Source: Gryganskiella cystojenkinii
Taxonomy: Eukaryota; Mortierellomycota; Mortierellomycetes; Mortierellales; Mortierellaceae
DNA: 25,097 nt
Reading direction: 5' to 3'
NCBI GenBank assembly: GCA_015852425.1
Contig: JAAAIG010000585.1
Location: 1-25,097 of the forward strand
A program made the position numbers and the translations under genes. The notes under the pieces are model-generated. The model searched no databases and had not been told where the DNA came from. It saw nothing but the letters and a program-made list of their open reading frames with translations. Positions 74 through 25,097 of the stretch are shown piece by piece. Position 1 is the stretch's first letter, and each line of letters starts with the position of its first letter.

Positions 74-2286
74 TCATGCCATCGAGTGGAGGTCGATGCC
101 CGAATCCTTTCCTTGTTGGCCTTGTTGGCCTTGTGGATGTTGTTGGTCTTTTGGGTCCGATCCCAGACATGATCCCGCCGCTGTCTTGGTCGTGTTTTTT
201 GTTTGGTTCGTCTTTGTCGTGACGGTAGGAGTGGTATTAGCAGTAGTAGTGGTCGAATTAGCTGAAGACAATGCTAAAACGTCTGGCGTCGTAAACGATC
301 GGCATTCGAGAACGCGTCGAGTTAGCTCTGGAAGCGTAATTCGCATCTTGGGGTTGAGACAAAATACGGCTTTGATGATCTCGTTCAGTTCATCTGACAT
401 GGGCAATATCGTCTTTAGGAAATCAGGGTCTCGTACATAGGCCGCAAAGGTATCATCTCTCGTAAAGGCCTGCTTCCATGGATTCCGACCAAAGACTAGG
501 TTGATCAGGATTACACCCAAGGACCAAACATCATTGGCGGCGCTATCGTAGCTTTTCACCGTTTCGACGTATCCCCCTTGGCATTCTATTCCGTTTTTTT
601 TTTGGTTCATCCAAAGGTGAAGTCCGAAGAAAGAAAAGAGAGAAAAAAAGTACAGGGGTTGAAAGGGAAGGCAGGGGAAGGGAGGGCGGATGAGAGAAAA
701 GGGAGGAGAGAAAAGGAGAGGAGGACCAGTAGAACGTAAAAAAAAGATCGAGATTGTTAGGGACAACTTTCTTCGATAATGCAGTGTTTTTCTTTGTTCG
801 GAGGGTTCAAAGAAAAGGGGGTTTAAAAACAGCAATGCTCAACAACACAATCAAGATTTTTTATTCTCTTTGCTTGAGTAAACAAACATAGAAAAGACCA
901 ATGATATTTCTGTACAAAAAGGGCTTTTTTCCTACCTGGCGACAAGTAAAAAGTCGACCCACAACCAAAATCGCTTGAGGTCTTTTCTGTAGTCGCAAGT
1001 CCGAAATCGACGAGCTTGACGGTGCTGCCAAACATGATGATGTTTTCGGGCTATACATTTTTTTTTGGTTATCATGATGAATTCGTGAGGGAATATAAGT
1101 ATCAAGGTCTCGCTTCTTCCAAAAGCAATTGAAATTGATTTAATTCAATTTTCCTTTCTCTCCCCTTCTTTTGTTTGTCTTTGCTTTTTGTCATTCTCTC
1201 TCGACAAGTGGGTCTGAAACTGGGCCAATGATCGCGCGAATGAATGACTGCCGACGCGTCTGACTGATGTCTCTCTTTTTTTGAACCTGTTTGTCATCTC
1301 TTATGCTGTTGCAATTATGCGTTTCGCCCTGAAGGCTGGTCGTCCCTTCTCAATGAGGAAGAGGCGAGACGTAGATAGGGCGACCAGAGCATGAGGAAGA
1401 TGGATGAACCGAGAAAGAGGGTAAAGTTCTTTCCGCGGCACGAGGGAGCTGTTTTGACTGGTATTCGCACTCTTGTCCTTTTTTTATTGTCGAGTTCTAA
1501 AACTCCATCCTCTTTTGACCTTTTGTTACGAATGAAATGAAATGAAAAATATATGGCAAGATGATTGAATATACTTTTTTGAATCGAAAAAAGATGTTTG
1601 TTTGTTTGTTTGCGTTGCGTTGTGCATGCGTTTGTTGACATATACTTTTTTTTTTACTGGTGTCCATCCTTCCCCTCTTCATCGCCCGAGCACACAGCAA
1701 ATCAAGAGAGTAACCAAAGTTGCCGTCGGCTGTTTTCCATCTTTTTCTGGTTGCTCTGACACTGATCCTCATTCTTCATTCAATTGAGGGAGGATTTTTG
1801 TTTTGTTTTGTTTTGCGTTTGTTCTTAGTTTCTTACCTTCAAATCTCGATGGTAAACCCCCCTGGAATGACAATGAGAGACCGCACTGGCAATCTGTCCA
1901 AAGGCATTTTTGATGCCAGTCTCATTCCCCACAAAGCCCCCTCTTTCTGTGATTTTAAAGAACAGATCACCTTCGACCCCACAGTCGAGGACCATGTACA
2001 GGCAATCGTCTTCCTCGACCACCTTGTGTAACGTTGCAATGTTTGGGTGCCCCGAGACCATTGCATGTAATGTTGTCTCATGGGTCTGAAAAGCTCTTTG
2101 TCGACTATCGAGCCCAGAGGTATGAAGACATTTTACCGCTCTGATCTCAGCTGTGGTCGTGTCGATCGCGCGGTAGACCGCACCATAGGCGCCCACACCG
2201 AGCATATCCTGAAGGACGAGTGAGCCTTGGTCGATGCTTTGGGGTAACCTCCGGATGGCGCCAAAGGATGTGGAGGATGGTGTCAT
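74..2286 (-). CDS. Ser/Thr protein kinase, Ran1/Ksp1/Sks1-like
   Basis: Spliced gene of 358 residues. Exons are 2286-1837, 1050-936 and 585-74, with donors gtaaga and gtagg and acceptors tatag and aatag. The joins restore HRDLK|PEN and YLSP|EC, which no single frame contains. Visible kinase parts are: Gly loop GVGAYGAV (residues 30-37), VK lysine K52, alpha-C Glu near 70, HRDLKPEN (146-153), DFG (165-167), SPE (187-189) and DVWSLG (207-212). The SPEC and DVWSLGVILINL-type wording resembles the fungal Ran1/Pat1, Ksp1 and Sks1/Vhs1 group, which acts in nutrient and differentiation signalling; the exact orthologue is uncertain. After the kinase domain (about 300) there is a Thr/Asn/Gln-rich disordered tail. 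The ATG at 2286 lies in the context ccaaccATG. Intron 1 (786 bp) and intron 2 (350 bp) are far longer than most introns in this window. Confidence 0.9.
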
Positions 2287-10463: not shown

Positions 10464-12434
10464 TTAACCCAGGCGGATGATACCAGCGGCCACAAGCTTG
10501 CGAATGTTGGCGGCGACCATGGGGTTCTTCATGTGAGCCTGAGCTGCCTGGGGATCCTCCTGCATCTGCTGCAAGATGCTACGCATAGCAGGGTCGCTCA
10601 TGATCCGCTGGACCTCGGGATCTTGTTGTGCCCTCGCCAATGTCTCGGCCTCGGTCTCGCCCTCACGACGGGTAGGACCTCGACTCATCTCGGCATAGAC
10701 CTTGTTGATCTGTTGATCAATCTCCACGGTGTTCTTCTTCTCCACATCAGCATCCTTGGCCTGCTGGCAGGTCTCCAAGCACTCTGTGTATTCCTTCTTC
10801 AAGAACTGGATAGCAGCCTTGCGGATATAGCCCTTCACGAACTTGGGATCCAAGGCGATACAGGTCTCACAATCCTTCAAGGCCTCATTGATCGCCATCA
10901 ATTTCGTATAACAGGCCGCACGGTTCGAGTATGCGCGGGGGTCAGTGTCGTCACGCTTGATCGCCTCCGTGTACTCCTTGACGGCGCCGGCGAAATCACT
11001 CGTCTTGAACAGAGCATTGCCACGGTCACGAGCCTCAGCCGAGAGGTTCACATCCTTATAGGCCTCTTTGTCAGCCTTGGCCTTGGCCTTCTCGACCTCC
11101 TTGAGCTTAGTGAGAATATCAGCGGTACGGTGCTCGGAAAGAGACTTTTCATAGAAACGGATCGCCTCGGGCAACTTGTTCTGCTTGGCATATGCAGATC
11201 CAATTCTTCCAAGAGCCTTGGCAATTAACTTGTAATCGGCACGATGTTCACGACCGACCTCGATCGCCTCCTCACAGTTCTTGATGCAGTCCTCAAAGTT
11301 ACCCATCTCAAAATAGACAGCAGCCTTGTTAGTCAAGATCGAGATGTTGGTAGGGTCGAGCTCAAAGGCCTTGCTGTAGTGAACAAGAGCGTCATCAAAC
11401 TTCTTGGCCTTGTAGCTGGCGTTTCCGAGATCCTTGGCCTTCAGGGCCTCCTTCTTGTTGATTTCCTCTTCACTGGGCATTTCCTCCTCCTTGGGCTCCT
11501 CCTTTTCCTCCTTCTTGGGTGCTGACGTGGGCTTGGACTCTGTGGGCTTTGAAGAAGTAGGGGGAGAGTAAGGAGTGGGGTCCTGATCCATGGGACTAGG
11601 ACCATCGTCCTCGGGTCCACCAGCACCGAGACCCATCAAGCCCATCAACAAGTTCATGATACGGGGATCCTGCATGTGCTGGTTCAACGCCTTGGGGTTC
11701 GCCTGAATGGCGCGGACCTTCTCCATGAGGTCGGGCTGAGACAACAGGGGGGCCAACTTGGGGTTGGCGGCCATCTTTGTGAAAACATCAGGTCCGAAGA
11801 ACTGACCGATTCCCATGCTCGCCTCTTGAAAACGAGAAAGGAATAGAAAAAATAGAAACGATCAATTAGTCACGGTAATGGTCGCAAGGACTAATTTTTC
11901 AGGCAAGCCTGTTTGTCAGGAACACAGACGGATGAACACTTACCCTTCTCCATAGCCTGCTGAGTCTCCTGAAGACCCTTCTGCAATAGCGCATTGGTGG
12001 GCTCGAGCTTCAATCCGGCCTCGTAAACGTCGTTGGCATCGGGATAACGAGCGAGTCCAAAGAGGGCAGCGGCCTTGCGTCCATATCCCTTGGCCCAGTC
12101 AGCCTTGAGTTCTACAGTCTTCTCGCCGTCCTCGAGGGCCTTCTCGTAGTTCTTCTGAGAGGCGTAGCAGGCAGAGCGGTTAGAATAAAGGACGTGGTTG
12201 GAGGGGTCGAGTTCGATGGCCTTTGAGAAAAAGTCGATGGCGGTAGGGTAGTCCTTGGCGAGGAAGGCCTTGTTGCCCTGAGCTTTGAATTCTTCGGCCT
12301 AAATGCAAAACAAACAAAAACAAAAGTAGATTAGTGCAAGTCGCGAATCTCACAAGCGGCGGCTGTTATACCGCAAGAACGGTGAGAGAGGAAAGAAAAT
12401 TGAACAAAGGCAAGCAACATAAAGCAATTACCAT
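10464..12434 (-). CDS. STI1: Hsp70/Hsp90 co-chaperone STI1 (HOP)
   Basis: Three coding exons, 12434-12432 (only ATG), 12298-11944 and 11824-10464, give 572 residues. Introns are 133 and 119 bp (gtaatt...tttag; gtaagt...tcaag). The first TPR block opens AEEFKAQGNKAFLAKDY directly after Met. A first DP (STI1) domain spans about 122-185 (MGIGQFFGPDVF, LNQHMQDPRIM). A charged Pro/Lys/Glu linker follows. TPR2A starts near 247 (KAKDLGNASYKAKKF) and TPR2B near 380 (EARDRGNALFKTSDF). The last DP domain, about 510-572, ends RKLVAAGIIRLG. This is the full order TPR1-DP1-TPR2A-TPR2B-DP2 and the usual length. STI1 bridges Hsp70 and Hsp90 through their EEVD tails and passes clients between them in the cytosol. 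It is divergently arranged with TDG and has a heat-shock-element core upstream. Confidence 0.97.
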
Positions 12435-12850: not shown

Positions 12851-14357
12851 ATGACAGAGTTTTCTTCCTTGGTTTCAAAATTCAAGCACGAGAACGACTC
12901 CAGCCAGGAGAGCCAGTCCAGCGGTAGTGGCAATGGCCGTAACAGTAATATGTCCACGATCAAGATCAAAAAACGAGAGCTCTCGGCCGAATTGGACATG
13001 ACAGAAGAAAACGAAGAAGATTCCGCCTCTGGTCTCGTCTCTCGAACTCGTAAGAGCTTGAGACTCAGCACCCCTCACCCCTCAGCCTTTCCCAACGGTC
13101 GCCCCTCAAACTCTCGAGTCATCAGCGCAGATAGCATCAAGTCTCGACCTCACTACAAACGGGAGCCAGTCAATGAGACTATCAAGAATGAAATCAAAGA
13201 GGAAACAAAGCCGGTACGTGTTGATCATCGAACCTGAGAAGAAAGTCCTGCGAGAGTAAATATTAATAACTTAATTCCTTTTTTATTGGGCGTCATTTCA
13301 CATAGCGCGCCATGAAGTCGCAGGGACGAAACGCAGGATACTCTGCTCCGGAGGTTTATGCCCACCTGAACCTGTTGTCGGATGTCATCGACTACGACCT
13401 AGACGTCTTATTTGTCGGTATCAACCCTGGCGTCCGTAGCAGCGAACGCTCTCACCACTTTGCAGGACCTACCAACCACTTTTGGCCCTGTCTGTCTGAC
13501 AGCGGTAAGCATTAAGAAACTGTTGATAAGTCGACCGTTATCGTTATTATTCCTCACGACTAAAAACCCGCATCGATATCTTCAATACCACAGGTCTACT
13601 CCCACCCGGCATTCGTATGGGACCCAACGACGACAGGACCTTGATTCAAGTTGCCAACATGGGTCTCACCAACCTTGTCGATCGCCCTTCCAGGATGGGG
13701 AACGAACTCTCGGTAGCAGAATGCCGTGCAGCCGCGCCGACTTTGACTGCTAAGATCAAGAAGTATCGGCCCCGCTTTGTGTGTTTTGTCAGTAAACAAG
13801 CCTGGGACATGTTTGCTGGGGTCGGTCTCGGTTTACAGACTGCCTGGATCAGCTGGTACAATGAAGAGGAAGACTACGCGGTGTTGCCGGGCGACAGTGA
13901 CGACCAGGAGAGGAACCATGCGATTCAGAATAACCTAGATGCTCAGGGGTATCGATTGGCGCCTTACTTGGAGGAAGGACCTGCGTCGGCTAAACTTGAA
14001 GAGGAACTCGCAGCCGAGGGCGTCTCCTCTCCTTTTGTCAAACATGAACCAACAGACAACGGCAGTATCAAGCAAGAACGCAGCGGAACATCTTCTTCCT
14101 CTTCTTTAGTATTCAAGACCAAGACTGAGGCTATGGAAGATACAAAGCCCCTCGAGGCCGATGTCGATATTGAAGACATGAGAACCCAGGGTCGACCTCT
14201 GAGAGGTTTGAACCGAGGCGGTGTCCGAGGCAGTCGCATGTTTGTCATGCCCAGTACTAGTGGCCGTGTGACTCAATACAGGAAAGAGGACAAGCTTGCG
14301 TATTTCAAACAGCTTGCAGAGTTAGTTCGCAAGGATCGTCAGATGCGTGGTGTTTAG
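12851..14357 (+). CDS. TDG: Thymine/uracil-mismatch DNA glycosylase (TDG/MUG family)
   Basis: Three exons, 12851-13213, 13306-13504 and 13594-14357 (introns 92 and 89 bp), encode 441 residues. The catalytic motif is GINPG (159-163), in which N161 matches the water-activating Asn of human TDG (N140). HHFAGPTNHFW (171-181) forms the pocket. NMGLTNLVDR (209-218) and MPSTSGR (406-412) are the other family signatures. The enzyme excises T or U opposite G, starting base-excision repair in the nucleus. The N-terminal 120 residues are Ser- and Lys/Glu-rich. About 120 residues are inserted between the GLGLQ strand (266-269) and the SRMFVMPSTSGR motif; human TDG has only a short loop there. KxE sumoylation-type motifs occur in both extra parts. 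Splicing restores SDSG|LLPPGI. Confidence 0.95.
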
Positions 14358-16737: not shown

Positions 16738-18952
16738 ATGATCTCTGCCGTCCGCTCAAAACCTCTCGCCCGCTTGGCCCGTCCTTTGGCCTCGCTTGTC
16801 CAGGCCTCCACTCATCTCACCTCCGTTGCTGCTTCCCAGGGCGCTCGTCGTCAGTTGTCCATCAATGCCGCTGCCGCCTCCGTTGCTATGTCTCAGCGTC
16901 TCAGGTAAGCACACATAATAGGCCCACAATAGGTGCCAAACGTAATTGAAGCGAAATATATAAAAAATCGAAGAAAAGCGCGCAACTTTCTCACACGTTC
17001 TGGTCAATCTCCTTGGGCCATCTCTTCTTGTAGCTCCCCTTACCGCTCCCAGGTCAGATACTACGGTAAGCGAGATCATACCCTGCATATTCCACAGCGC
17101 TGGAAGGATGGAGCACCTATTGGTTGAGTTGAGTTGATAGTTGCCCTGGATAATGATACTGATCTGCTGATAACTATTCCTTTTTCGCCATTTAGCTGAC
17201 TACGTCGTCAAGGTCCCCCATATGGCCGACTCCATCTCCGAGGGTTCTTTGAAGCAGTGGAACAAGAGTATGTGTCGTTATTTGTTTGTCATGGACCTTT
17301 CGCAGAACAAAGGATTCTCTATGATTCAGGAAATCAAGCTCAAGCAATTGCTAATCAAACTTTTATTTATGAACTGATCAATGATTCGAATAGAGGTCGG
17401 TGACTTTGTTGCCCTGGACGAGGAGATTGCCACCATCGAGACTGACAAGGTAATGAACCAAGGAATCTAAGAAAGACGAAACAATCCATTCCCAACCATA
17501 CAGGAAATCGCAGGATGATCAATGGAGACACACTACCTATTTTTGGGTTTATCACTTGTCTGACAGAAACGGAACGGATAAAAAAACACACAGATGGGGT
17601 AAAAAACGACTTTCTGTTGAGCCCGAGCGAAGCAAAAACACCAAGAAAGCGATCGCTCAAACCTTGACGGCCAAGAAGGACGACCTGATCACAATCAGTT
17701 ATCTAGTGTGGACGGCTATGCGCGCAAGGATCTCAGACCGACGTGGGTTTCATAAAATACCTCAGGACACTCCGGTCGTAGAATGAAGGAGAAAGAATAG
17801 AGTAACAACAGATCGCTGACTCTTTTACCGTAACCAATTGTATCAACAGGTCGATGTCGCCGTTAACTCACCCAAGTCTGGTACCATTATTGAGCTTTAT
17901 GCCAAGGAAGAGGAGACCGTTGCTGTCGGTGCTGATCTCTTCAAGCTGGAGCTCGGAGATGCCCCCGCCGGAGGTACCGAAAACTGGCGCATTTTTTTGT
18001 TGATATAAAAGGTCATTGCAATGACGTGAGCTAACGCATTTTTTCACTTTGAACTATCTCAGGCAAGACCGAGACCAAGGAGGAACCCAAGAAGGAGGCT
18101 AAGAAGGAAGAACCCAAGGCCGAGGTCAAGAAGGAGGAGCCTAAGAAGGAGGCCGCCCCTGCCGCCGCTGCCCCCTCAAAACCCGCTGCCCCTGCCCCTG
18201 CTAAGGCTGCTGCCCCCGCTGCCGAGTCTCATTCTGCCCCCGTTGCTTTTAGCCGTGAGGAGCGTAGCGTGAAGATGAACCGTATGCGTCAGACCATCGC
18301 CAGGCGTCTGAAGCAATCTCAGGAGAACGCCGCCTCGCTCACCACCTTCAACGAGGTCGATATGACCAACTTGATGAAGCTCCGTTCGACCTACAAGGAT
18401 GCCGTCTTGAAGAAGCACAACATCAAGCTTGGATTCATGTCGGCTTTCGTCAAGGCTTCTTGCTACGCCCTCAAGGAGTTGCCTGCTGTCAATGCCAGAA
18501 TCGAGGGTGACTCGATTGTCTACAACGACTACGTCGATGTCTCTGTCGCTGTCGCCACTCCTAAGGGTCTTGTCACCCCCGTTATCCGTAACGCCGAGAG
18601 CTTGTCCTTTGTCGAGGTCGAGAAGTCGATTGCCCAGTATGGTGCCAAGGCCCGTGATGGTCAGATTGCCATTGAGGATTTGAGCGGCGGTACCTTCACC
18701 ATCTCGAACGGTGGTGTCTTTGGATCGATGATGGGTACCCCCATTATCAACATGCCCCAGAGCGCCATCTTGGGTATGCACGCGATCAAGGAGAGACCCG
18801 TTGCTGTCGATGGCAAGGTCGAGATCCGCCCCATGATGTACATTGCCCTGACCTATGATCACCGTATCATTGATGGTCGTGAGGCCACGACTTTCTTGGT
18901 CAAGTTGAAGGAGGTTATTGAGGATCCCGTCCGTCTTCTCTTGGACGTTTAA
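16738..18952 (+). CDS. KGD2: Dihydrolipoamide succinyltransferase, E2 of 2-oxoglutarate dehydrogenase
   Basis: Six exons: 16738-16904, 17034-17065, 17196-17267, 17394-17449, 17850-17973 and 18063-18952. They encode 446 residues. Introns are 129, 130, 126, 400 and 89 bp; exon 2 is only 32 bp. The first ~65 residues are Arg/Ala/Ser-rich with few acids, a mitochondrial targeting signal. The lipoyl domain follows ([13 protein letters not shown], then [13 protein letters not shown] with lipoyl Lys K109). A linker of Lys/Glu/Pro then Ala/Pro repeats (about 155-225) replaces a peripheral-subunit-binding domain, as in other eukaryotic E2o proteins. The catalytic acyltransferase domain ends in [11 protein letters not shown] with H417 and D421 in place. 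It transfers succinyl groups from lipoate to CoA in the matrix TCA cycle. The last intron starts with the weak donor gtaccg. Confidence 0.97.
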
Positions 18953-21075: not shown

Positions 21076-22280
21076 TTAGGCTGTGGCGTTCGCACGGGCG
21101 ACAAAAAGGGCATCTGAATCGACCTTGAGATGGCTCTGAAGATCCTCTTGGGACTTGATATGGTATCCCAACTCGCCCAAGAGTCCCGTACGGATATCGT
21201 AGACCATACCGACAATTTCGACATGTTGACCTCTCTCCCAGGCGGCACGCATCGTGGGCGTCTTGGCGACAGTCAAGACCGAGTTTCGGCAGTTAATCTC
21301 CACCAGGGCTCGGCACTTCTCCTCTGTGGTCTGGATCTTGTTCAGGTTGTGAAGATGTTGTTGCTTGACCTCCTTGATGTTGCCCAACCAGTTGTCGATC
21401 AAACCATAAGAGCCATCACCCAAGGCAGCGGCCACACCACCACACTCGTAGTGTCCACAGACAACGACGGTCTCAACCTTGAGGACATCAACAGCGTATT
21501 GGAGGACGGAAAGACAGTTCAGATCTGTGCCCACGACAACATTGGCGATATTGCGGTGCGTAAAGACTTCGCCGGGGGCTGAAATGAAATGAAATCAGAT
21601 TGGAAAAAGAGAGGTGAGTTAAATGAATAGGGTTCGGTCAGTTATGTGGGGTCTGGATCTGTTATCAGAGATTTTTTGATCGTCCGCCCAAAAAAAAAAA
21701 AGACCGAAAATGCTTTTTCGACTTCATTTTTGATTGTCCCGACTCTGCCCTAACCGTGTTGTGGTTGTGTTTCGAAAAACCTCCCCATAAACTTACCAAG
21801 TTGAAGGAGCTCATTCTCAGGCACACGCGAGTCCGAGCAACCGATCCAGAAGACCTTGGGTTGTTGACCCTTGGAGCAATTCTCAAAGAAGTCCGGCTGG
21901 CGTTCCCGAATGGCCTTGGACCACGCACGGTTGTTCTTCAAGAGACGGGACAGACCATGGTTCTTCTCGATCGTGGGGCTGGGACCGAAGGTGACGGGAG
22001 AACGAGGGCAGCAAGCGGAATGATCGTCCTCATCGTCCTCTACTTGCTGTTCACCACTACTGTTATATTTGTGAAGGAGGTGATGCAAGTGGTGATGATG
22101 TTTGTGGTCATGGGAGGAAGCAGTGCTGACAGAAAGTTGCTGAACCTGGTTCACGACATCGGCCTCGACGACGGTGGTATCCTTTTTCTCGACGATGATG
22201 TTGGGCGACATGCTGGTATTGTTATCAGGAATAGTGATGTTGTTAGGTTGAGGACTAGCGTGATGGAAGAAAGAAAACAT
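21076..22280 (-). CDS. NCE103: Beta-class carbonic anhydrase
   Basis: Two exons, 22280-21797 and 21578-21076, with a 218-bp intron (gtaagt...ttcag), give 328 residues. The zinc ligands are C148 (in FWIGCSDSRVPE), H204 and C207 (in VVVCGHYECGG). The catalytic Asp150-Arg152 pair is present. APGEVFTHRNIAN follows the splice and GNIKEV and EINCRNSV complete the family pattern. The enzyme interconverts CO2 and bicarbonate; in yeast the homologue NCE103 supplies bicarbonate for carboxylases in ambient air. About 105 residues precede the core, more than in yeast (221 residues in total there). This extension has a His cluster (HDHKHHHHLHHLLHK, 57-71) and an acidic run (VEDDEDD, 80-86). ATG 22280 is the first in frame; the frame upstream is open without another ATG. 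No clear mitochondrial presequence is seen. Confidence 0.95.
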
Positions 22281-23555
22281 TATTAAAATATTGAAAATGA
22301 AGGTAGAGAGAAGCAAGGAAGGCAGGGAATGAGACAGGCTTTTTAAACAGGGCAATGCTTTATCCAACTAGGAAAGCATCCCGTGAACGGATTCGACAAG
22401 TGTGGGCTATCCATTTGATCCCGTTATTGATCGACTTTTTCTTCCTGTTCTGTCAAGGTGGGCGACCGTTTTGGATCGAAAAGAGTCCTTCTTTGTTGTT
22501 GCTGTTCTCTTTCCTGTTTCCCCCAAAAGGGCTTCGATTCATGCAAAAAGAAAGTTCAAAGGTATTGTCCACAGGCGCAGACATGGCTGGAATAACTGTA
22601 GAAATAGAGGACGAGGGCGACAGGTTCTTCCATACACATGCCCCTGCTGATCGAATTTGTTCCAGAACATGAAATTCTCGGGAACTCCATCTTTGTCTCT
22701 TTTCTTTACCTTGGTGAAAAGAAGAGAGGGCGAATTGACTGGACTGGACTGGGAAACTTGGGAAGAGAGGTGAAGTGGTTGCTTGGCTGGTGGGGATTGA
22801 AGAGCTGAAGAGAAGAAAGGAAGAAAAAAGAAAAAGAAAAAAAGAAAGGAGTTATACTATTTATTTGCGTGAACAACGAGCGATCTCTTCTTCACTCCCG
22901 TTATTTTTTTTTTTGTTGGACCAACATTTTTTTTTTATTGGTTTTTTGAGCTTCTTGCTCCGAGGACCAGAAAGATACAATGAAGGACCATCGACTTTCA
23001 CCCCTCCACTCTTTACTGTCTTCCTTGTCGTTTCTCTTTCGAAATGTGCCGAATCTCACACCGCTTCCATATTTTGATGCGAAACTATTTGTGTTCTTAT
23101 TGTTTGCCCACGAAAACTGTCTCGTTGTGTTCGCGTTCGTTGTGCAACTTGACCAAGAAAACATTGCAAATGTGGGTAAAGGATGTGCTTATCCAACCCC
23201 TCGGAAATACAAGTCCACGCCCTTCAACCCAATATCTCCAATCAAAGCATGAAGAACACAGAGCCTGGCTCTCTTTACCTCAATAAGTGGTGAGTTCGAC
23301 AAAGGGGCAGAGTGAGCAGGTGAATTTTTTTTCCAATCGACGAAAGAAACTTTCAGGAACAGAAAACAAAGTTTGTGGGGATCGTCAAATATGGAGGTGC
23401 GCACGGTCAATTAGGCACATGTGCAGTTAAAAGAACCCTGCATCTACGTTCAATTATCGTTCCTGTCATTTTGAGAACACAAAACTATTTCTGCGTTAGC
23501 AGTCACTCATGATGCCTTGGAAATTAAAGAAGGGTGCGGCCGGCGCGATTTGCTT
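22281..23555. other. Intergenic region between carbonic anhydrase and Fanzor
   Basis: About 1.3 kb, containing the carbonic anhydrase promoter on the left and the 3' flank of the Fanzor on the right. There are T and A homopolymers (22903-22940) and short frames without motifs. The 150-250 bases next to the Fanzor stop contain a GC-rich patch (gcggccggcgcg near 23537) and a perfect palindrome gcacatgtgc (23415-23424). In TnpB and Fanzor loci the guide RNA and element end lie on this side, but I cannot define either by eye. Confidence 0.45.
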
Positions 23556-25097
23556 CTAAAAGGTCTGATTAGCTCTCGTGATAGCGAGGTGAGTAGCAAC
23601 AATCCATGCTGCGTTTGTATCTCTCCCTCTGTGACTGTATCCACATAGGAAAGAGATACAATCGGGGTTTATGCACTCCACTGCTCCGTGAATCCGCATT
23701 GTTTTCACACCCTTGGTTGTCATCCTGCGCGCACGAACGAGTCGTACAAGCTCAAAACAATATGGACATGTTTGCGAGCTCATGTGTTCGTTCGTCTTGG
23801 CCACAGGCGTGTATCGCATGTGTCGCTCCGGTACAGTACTGCCGCCCATTTTCGCCTTCCCTTTGAACCGGGATTGATCACCCATCCCTGCTGCACCGTG
23901 AAGAATGATTGGAATCACCTCGAGCTTTTCTAGTGGACACTGACCAACATGCTGTAGAACCTTGCGCACTGTCTCGTGTCCTGAGGCGTCGACAATCTTC
24001 TTGACAACAATCTCCGGTCGATGATGCCTCAAGCACGATGTGCAATAGCCGTCATCACAAATTGTCGACGCATCGAGAGAAGACTGGTCTAGTAAAGTTG
24101 ACGGCAATGGAGACGATGAAAGGCATCCATCTCGTTCCCAAGGCTGATGAACGGCATGGACAACTACAAAAATTAGGACAGTAAGGATGTTGTGCGCCAA
24201 TTAGAAACTAAAGTAAAGAAAACATATCCGTAGGCATGCACATTAGATAAAATTAAAACTTGCCATTCTTGCAGATACTTCGCTCCCGGGCAGCTGCATA
24301 ATCATATGCTCGGTTGAGGGACAGGTTTGTGTGATGCTTCATATTCCGCATGGCTGGGGACCGTTCGAATTTGCGAACCTCTGCTGCTGCAGCTCGTCGA
24401 ACCTGAGCCGCCTGCTCCACCTCCATGACCGAGCTCGCGTTCTCAAGACTTTGTCCTGCCAGACGCTCATATATCCTTCTGATCGGCCTATTCCTCTTGG
24501 AATTTAGTCTTTTTTGGCGGAATTGTTGTTGTTTGGTTAAGCCAGAAACATGGCGTAGTCTCGATACTGACGTCTCGTGAGCCTCAGGGATCTTGATAGT
24601 ATTGAGGGCCATAGTCCGACTCTGAGCAAGTGCGCTGTGGAAGTCACTGTCCAACTCGTCGATCCTTTCCGAATCCCTGGATGAGAGAGCCTCGTACCGA
24701 TTCTGGAGTTTGATGGCGGTCGAAACAGGCACCGGTACAGCGTTAAACATTTTGCTTCGACCGGGGTCGACGCCAATGAGAACCTCTTGCTTGACTCGAC
24801 GGGGCTGTTCACCACCGTCGCGGTTCTGTCTTTTTTCGCATTTGTCGGATAAATTGTCTGTTCTCATTGCTATAGAGTCATTGTTGACCCTGATCTCCTC
24901 CAGAAGCTCAGTGATTGACATGGACTCTGCATAGTCCATACAGCCCCGATGCTTCAGAGAAGGTGTCGAGGTGATGGTCGTCTGATCTGAGCTTGCAGTG
25001 GGTGTGGGAACCGACGCCGATGCCGATGCCGATGACGATGATGATGATGATGATGACGCAGCCGGTTCGCTTTTGTCCTTTGCCTTTTTTTTTCCTG
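23556..25097 (-). CDS. Fanzor (eukaryotic TnpB-like RNA-guided nuclease), C-terminal part
   Basis: Two exons are visible, from the window edge (25097) to 24264 and 24163-23556. They are joined across a 100-bp intron with a GC donor (AATG|gcaagt) and a tag acceptor; 479 residues are seen and the frame runs out of the window at its 5' end. The order, numbered from the edge, is: basic GKKKAKDK, a run of nine Ser then Ala/Ser/Thr (about 14-45), RuvC-I VLIGVDPGRS with D110, a long helical Arg/Lys-rich stretch (about 170-270), a GAAG-FKG segment (366-380), NEHMSSQTCPYC with E403 and C410/C413, then HGAVECINPDC (C441/C446) and RDTNAAW with RuvC-III D459. The DPG, TSxxCPxC...HGxxxCxNxxC and RDxNAA order is diagnostic of TnpB/Fanzor proteins, which cut DNA guided by an omega-RNA. 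No inactivating stop or frameshift was seen. A fully domesticated gene is an alternative to a mobile one. Confidence 0.88.

Follow-up and report, generated by a model that had tools for sequence, protein, structure and literature searches.

The question raised by this locus is whether the gene at the edge of the window (the whole stretch of DNA analysed, which is contig G000:C645 with 25097 bp, from an assembly of 35.0 Mb in 1,050 contigs) is an intact Fanzor nuclease gene that is active or was so until recently, as the initial annotation had read it. The answer that we consider very probable is a different one, namely the C-terminal part of a damaged Fanzor gene, provisionally of the Fanzor1 type, placed at the right end of a mobile element. 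For the locus itself the result is mostly corrective: it holds a Fanzor, but a damaged copy.

Between the contig end and a stop codon at 23558-23556, the minus strand holds two open frames. Exon 1 (24264..25097, minus strand) is partial and runs off the contig; its 280-aa open frame contains a Ser-rich linker, a long and, judged by eye, helical stretch and the RuvC1 segment with DPG. It is followed by a predicted intron of 100 bp (24164..24263, minus strand, GC-AG, phase 1), across which the exons join in frame, and by exon 2 (23556..24163, minus strand) with RuvC2, a C4 zinc ribbon (TNB) and RuvC3, and then a frameshifted end and the stop. Paralogous copies, named here by their contigs, carry introns at the same position in C92 (91 bp, GT-AG) and in C797 (GC-AG, AG/GCAAGT, by eye), and the GC-AG intron of the window is for this reason credible. 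The joined product has 479 residues without its N-terminal part, as the N-terminal half of the gene lies beyond the contig end.

In this product the RuvC1 catalytic Asp of DPG is residue 110 (codon 24766..24768, minus strand). On the same strand follow the alternative RuvC2 Glu (codon 23787..23789), which stands in TNEHMSSQTC as the Glu of KTNEHMSSQTCPYC and six residues before the first zinc Cys, the zinc ribbon CPYC...ECINPDC (23658..23768) and the RuvC3 catalytic Asp of RD in RGRDTNAA (codon 23619..23621), with 11 residues between the last zinc Cys and RD in the order SSQTCPYC, ECINPDC, RD. For comparison, window exon 2 and six paralogous exons were aligned as profile A2 (7 rows), the exon-1 rows as profile A6 (6 rows) and an exon further upstream as profile A5. 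The RuvC2 Glu (E138), the four zinc Cys and the RD Asp (D194) are invariant in all seven rows of A2, and the RuvC1 Asp in all six rows of A6, where it stands in DPG in four, in DPS in C420 (a broken copy) and in DRG in C271. The latter (L019:3254-5410) is a distant paralogue which keeps the Glu, the zinc Cys and RD. The initial annotation had thus placed IGVDPG, SSQTCPYC...HGAVECINPDC and RDTNAA in the right order, on the right strand and at the right coordinates, in frame across one intron, and the two Asp codons (24768-24766 and 23621-23619) and four zinc Cys which it found to survive are those that the aligned paralogues hold invariant. It made no mention of the RuvC Glu at 23789-23787, of the damage after RDTNAA or of the element end at 23454.

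Its view that the rest of the window is housekeeping fits the genes that Pfam recognised above its cut-offs among ten ORFs scanned, which are a protein kinase (77-838, minus strand), an STI1/HOP-like TPR protein (10467-11861, minus), a member of the uracil-DNA glycosylase superfamily (13530-14354, plus) and a 2-oxoacid dehydrogenase acyltransferase (18053-18949, plus). No transposase domain was found in these ten ORFs. The nearest neighbour scanned, at 21753-22367 on the minus strand, is a frame resembling the start of a beta-carbonic anhydrase, with a Pro_CA score of 21.2 bits below the cut-off of 25.7. The size of the genome, its short introns and its gene content suggest a fungus.

The gene belongs to a family with several copies in the genome. 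Counting copies elsewhere in the genome had been proposed as a check, and exon 2 matches 11 places including the window, the 10 others at E-values from 4e-81 to 1.6e-4, well beyond what chance would give. Exon 1 yields nine rows in seven contigs including the window, the eight others lying in six contigs (E 5e-70 to 9e-4), with homologues in C92, C420, C797, C986, C141 and C232; a search with the C272 exon adds one broken piece, in C330. In exon 2 the identity of the six aligned paralogues to the window is 32-66%, and at the DNA level C141 and C420 share 89% and C986 and C232 86%, with other matching stretches at about 65-75%. The exons of C797 join without a stop to give a predicted spliced model of at least 1,393 residues, for which a start codon was not found, and those of C272 are individually open where read. 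In C986 the frame seems to be broken within the N-terminal part, stops fall within the matched stretches of C420, C227 and C232, and C887 is frameshifted by eye. C797, the longest Fanzor model, has an extended acidic (DDL) run (L016:1275-2457), and no Pfam domain in its four upstream exons exceeds the cut-off.

The Pfam TnpB/Fanzor zinc ribbon has 36 matches in the whole genome at E-values up to 1, of which 19 exceed the cut-off and at least four of the 36 are members of the window family. When compared profile to profile with the window family, twelve other zinc ribbons of the genome aligned with a probability of 94.7 (E 6e-8, 59 columns). Besides the window family, at least four further sequence groups can be distinguished by eye among the zinc-ribbon loci L048-L067. 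With 19 matches elsewhere in the genome passing the zinc-ribbon cut-off, the case for this gene as the chief candidate for an unusual system has little weight.

Downstream of the gene, the stretch 23454..23520 (67 bp, minus strand) ends on the Fanzor strand with ...TGACAGGAACGATAA at a boundary at 23454. This block recurs at 96% identity in C422:34252-34318 and at 90% in C46:11603-11665; all three copies begin at the same base and the flanks outside are unlike. No further place in the assembly was found to hold it by two DNA searches, which skip very common words. Inward of the block, C422 and C46 contain an open frame for a Fanzor tail, similar to the one in C92 (PFNS...GAPRNWV in C422 against PFNS...GAPKNWV in C92, by eye), of which C46 holds the last part only, and their contigs end 167 and 104 bp further inward. 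The two are 95% identical to each other; C292 gives an extra 53-bp match at 83%, confined to tail coding. We infer that 23454-23520 is the right end of a dispersed element, with the assembler breaking within near-identical copies. The 22-bp right terminus occurs in the genome at three exact sites and at one with three mismatches, where a reversed-pattern control likewise gave one. Since C422 and C46 share this element end, recent activity of close relatives is plausible. At the loci scanned neither a left terminus nor flanking inverted repeats were found: in five regions there were six pairs of inverted repeats, but no Fanzor gene lay between the members of a pair, and in L015 and L016 a scan of the leading 700 bp against their own 3' boundaries showed no TIR, though these stretches may fall short of the true left ends. 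The shared right terminus offers a handle for finding the left end, the target-site duplication and the guide RNA.

That the family consists instead of host-domesticated genes, old and diverged copies that selection has kept and not mobile cargo, would agree with several of these observations, such as the low identity of the paralogues (32-66%) and the five scanned loci in which no inverted repeat brackets a gene. A frame downstream of the gene in C986 also looks Sm-like by eye, and for the one computable pair, the window and C92, dN/dS is about 0.13 over 350 codons (with dS near saturation at 1.7), which reflects past purifying selection on the window gene. However, three loci whose flanks are unlike share one right boundary, which like the 89% pair of C141 and C420 points to dispersal, and several copies are broken; domestication is therefore unlikely.

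The case for damage lies at the 3' end of exon 2. Relative to C92 and C141 a 17-bp deletion (alignment columns 844-860) has its junction at 23595..23596 on the minus strand, directly after RDTNAA; it puts the sequence out of frame, and both the ALNIA...GYS helix and the tail are lost. After RDTNAA, C92 continues for 57 residues and C141 for 63, but the window for only 16 unrelated ones, WIVATHLAITRANQTF, before it stops. This new stop codon falls within a 27-bp block (23537..23563, minus strand) common to C422 (24 of 27 bases). Beyond this block 16 bp in the window (23521..23536, minus strand) take the place of 140 bp in C422, which comprise tail coding and 3' UTR with a putative donor GTAAGT, a net loss of 124 bp. 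Sites held constant elsewhere have changed as well. Among the exon-2 columns invariant in six paralogues the window differs at 5 of 33, four of them after RDTNAA and one before; with only the four nearest paralogues considered it differs at 14 of 65 (10 after, four before), including the L and N of NAALNI. Changes are also seen away from the 3' end: in exon 1, where a contig end cuts off C92 and the comparison leaves it out, the window departs at 21 of the 66 columns on which C797, C986 and C420 agree, several beside DPG.

Upstream of the damage, exon 2 has changed no faster than its counterpart, with 10 derived sites in the window against 11 in C92 and 13 ambiguous, and the damage may therefore be recent, or an assembly fault at a repeat. 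Were both deletions assembly errors, with reads of similar copies mixed at the contig end, the true locus would be intact. The window contig does end inside the element, as do C422 and C46, and Fanzor-like loci are over-represented within 1 kb of contig ends (7 of 19, P 7e-5, and 4 of 11, P 0.003, against 6% expected). The altered stretch, however, also carries substitutions at flanking invariant sites, and the terminal 67 bp differ from C422 by three bases and so mark a distinct copy; an error of this kind is unlikely.

Still less probable, in our judgement, is that the gene is intact and active and that its shorter C-terminus is a natural variant which still folds. The survival of all motif residues speaks for such a variant, as do the dN/dS of 0.13 and the lack of excess exon-2 changes before RDTNAA, and a helix might still arise from the altered end. 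Against these stand the 17-bp gap that shifts the frame within the conserved RuvC3 helix, the changed L and N of NAALNI, and the remnants downstream of the gap, which align out of frame to C92 and, with the 124-bp net loss, to C422. The window Fanzor is probably a damaged, dead copy, in which activity would have been lost. 'Apparently intact' is not supported for this copy as assembled, in view of the frameshifting gap, the changes at invariant residues and the 124 bp missing on balance, and 'active or recently active' finds no support for the window copy given the frameshift and the 3' losses. Being damaged, this copy is not a suitable pick as an active nuclease. A structure model of window exon 2 alone, a single exon with the N-terminal half of the protein missing, has a pLDDT of 34.5, too low to be informative about the fold.

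The family call itself stood up well. DPG together with an alternative RuvC Glu is described in PMC10711439 as the molecular fingerprint of Fanzors, and the window carries IGVDPG and the alternative Glu of E-HMSSQT-C. The motif given in PMC3627910, [TS][TS]xx before the C4 finger and X(5,50)-RD after it, is likewise present. The gap from the Asp to [TS][TS] is 295 in the window, outside the D-X(125,275) published there, and within that range in C797 (262) and C986 (270); we regard that range, which dates from 2013, as empirical and not as defining for Fanzor/TnpB. The TDG motif of the Fanzor1 WED domain is absent from the spliced models of C797 and C986, the window lacking the region concerned. 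As the gap of 295 is out of range and TDG is absent, the Fanzor1 label is provisional, and the Fanzor label stands.

Window exon 2 alone detected no Fanzor in PDB, and the Pfam zinc ribbon PF07282, proposed as a check by the initial annotation, scores 17.2 bits on the window against a cut-off of 26.3, and no Pfam match of the window Fanzor reaches its respective cut-off; because of these results the profile of seven exons was needed. When A2 was compared with 177,635 distinct PDB sequences, the best match was SpuFz1 (E 3.8e-4), with PpFz1 next (E 0.15, non-significant by itself, the third match being an antibody-like chain at E 0.19). On the C-terminal exons of the paralogues PF07282 scores 16.0-22.2 bits in five of six, C797 having no match at E 1, and passing its cut-off is not a defining feature of Fanzors. 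Profiles A6 and A5 detected no Fanzor in PDB (best match of A6, geminin at E 0.004), and the C272 exon alone only Cas12f, at E 1.2. Weak or sub-threshold matches to TnpB, transposase or Cas12 were obtained for 3 of 7 proteins in NCBIfam, 3 of 5 in PHROGs and 2 of 5 in PADLOC, and no such match in these three collections for the window exon itself; no relative of the window exon or of A2 was confirmed on viral contigs. That the gene encodes an unrelated zinc-ribbon protein with motifs arisen by chance, as the sub-threshold Pfam score and the single exon without a PDB Fanzor match might suggest, is extremely improbable in view of the ordered motifs in seven diverged paralogues and of the Fanzor1 structures as the top two PDB matches.

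In Fanzors, dsDNA cutting by RuvC is directed by an omega-RNA that derives from the gene's 3' side and whose guide extends into the flank (PMC10432273, PMC10711439). The window gene would descend from an RNA-guided RuvC nuclease, and its working relatives, by analogy with the steps in the Fanzor literature, would cut DNA under the guidance of such an omega-RNA; cutting of matching targets, such as the empty donor site, may let the element persist. The two ends of the 3' region pair with p-values of 0.009 in C422, 0.03 in C46 (near-identical to C422 and non-independent of it), 0.09 in C797, 0.87 in C986 and 0.67 in C141, and in C422 and C46 the sequence after the stop codon pairs with the last bases of the element in a possible terminal stem. 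Terminal and whole regions fold no better than shuffled ones (z-scores from -0.81 to +0.77), and Rfam found no match in six sources. A proven terminal hairpin was dropped, as the z-scores are non-significant and two of the five copies show no pairing.

A feature recurring on this side is GTAAGT, found by eye within about 25 bp after the stop codon in C92, C141, C422, C46, C797 and C986 (loci L013, L014, L015, L016, L069 and L070) and followed by an acceptor-like AG in five of the six, all but C92. Homology ends, again by eye, 9-10 bp past this AG both in C422, C46 and the window and in C141 and C420. As an alternative to a terminal stem in these bases, the arrangement suggests a 3' UTR intron, of which the window retains the putative acceptor side and has lost the donor side. 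A further idea, which we hold only tentatively and think unlikely, is that Fanzors of very large size (about 1,400 residues) and lacking TDG make up a divergent branch, whose element right end lies about 9 bp past the acceptor of the 3' UTR intron and in which splicing of read-out transcripts might help to make or to limit the guide RNA. Introns in Fanzor genes have reportedly been described in other work, and we therefore do not claim them as new. The word 'intron' is absent from the main text of PMC10711439, PMC10432273 and PMC11423790. What the genome offers is several Fanzor/TnpB-like branches at once, with introns inside and probably just past the coding frame; the window copy comes from one of large size and some divergence.

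With regard to known systems, a search of one literature library found no report joining Fanzor with Mortierella. Within the same genome, the zinc-ribbon loci of C2, C37, C340, C201, C434, C625 and others have the same layout of E-[FY]-x-[TS]-S...C4...RD, however, they pass the PF07282 cut-off, which the window family fails. With the shorter profile built from them, the top matches are TnpB-like L79 (E 3e-10) and TnpB structures, and the three Fanzor1 structures come at E 0.018 (PpFz1), 0.045 (SpuFz1) and 0.24 (GtFz1). The initial annotation had called Fanzor the counterpart of IS200/IS605 TnpB; according to PMC10711439 the nearest prokaryotic lineage is instead IS607 TnpB. The same source gives the size of Fanzor1 as up to about 800 residues, an upper range that the C797 model (at least 1,393 residues) exceeds.

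Among characterised proteins the nearest is SpuFz1, the Fanzor1 of Spizellomyces punctatus (PDB 8gkh) and the best PDB match of the window-family profile, which is colinear with the family from RuvC2 through E-x-x-[TS][TS], the C4 ribbon and RD, and which we take to be the protein named SPu-1-1p. As described in PMC3627910, SPu-1-1p of Spizellomyces punctatus has 633 aa, is encoded by one ORF and lies in an element with 33-bp TIRs; the window family, unlike it, has introns, a paralogue model of at least 1,393 aa and no TIR found, and the window copy is damaged. The second match, PpFz1 (Parasitella parasitica Fanzor1, PDB 9cf0), is likewise fungal, and its fused construct has 1,259 aa against 1,032 for that of SpuFz1. 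It bears an insertion in RuvC, the FRI domain, which PMC11423790 reports only from Parasitella and Rhizopus. Fanzor1s of Mucor, Rhizopus and Phycomyces, some of them without TIRs, were described in 2013 (PMC3627910). By their description, the family can be likened to MCi-2 and MCi-5 of Mucor circinelloides, fungal Fanzor1 elements without recognisable TIRs, the copies of MCi-2 sharing a common 6-kb 3' region that codes for the Fanzor and differing in their 5' ends (PMC3627910).
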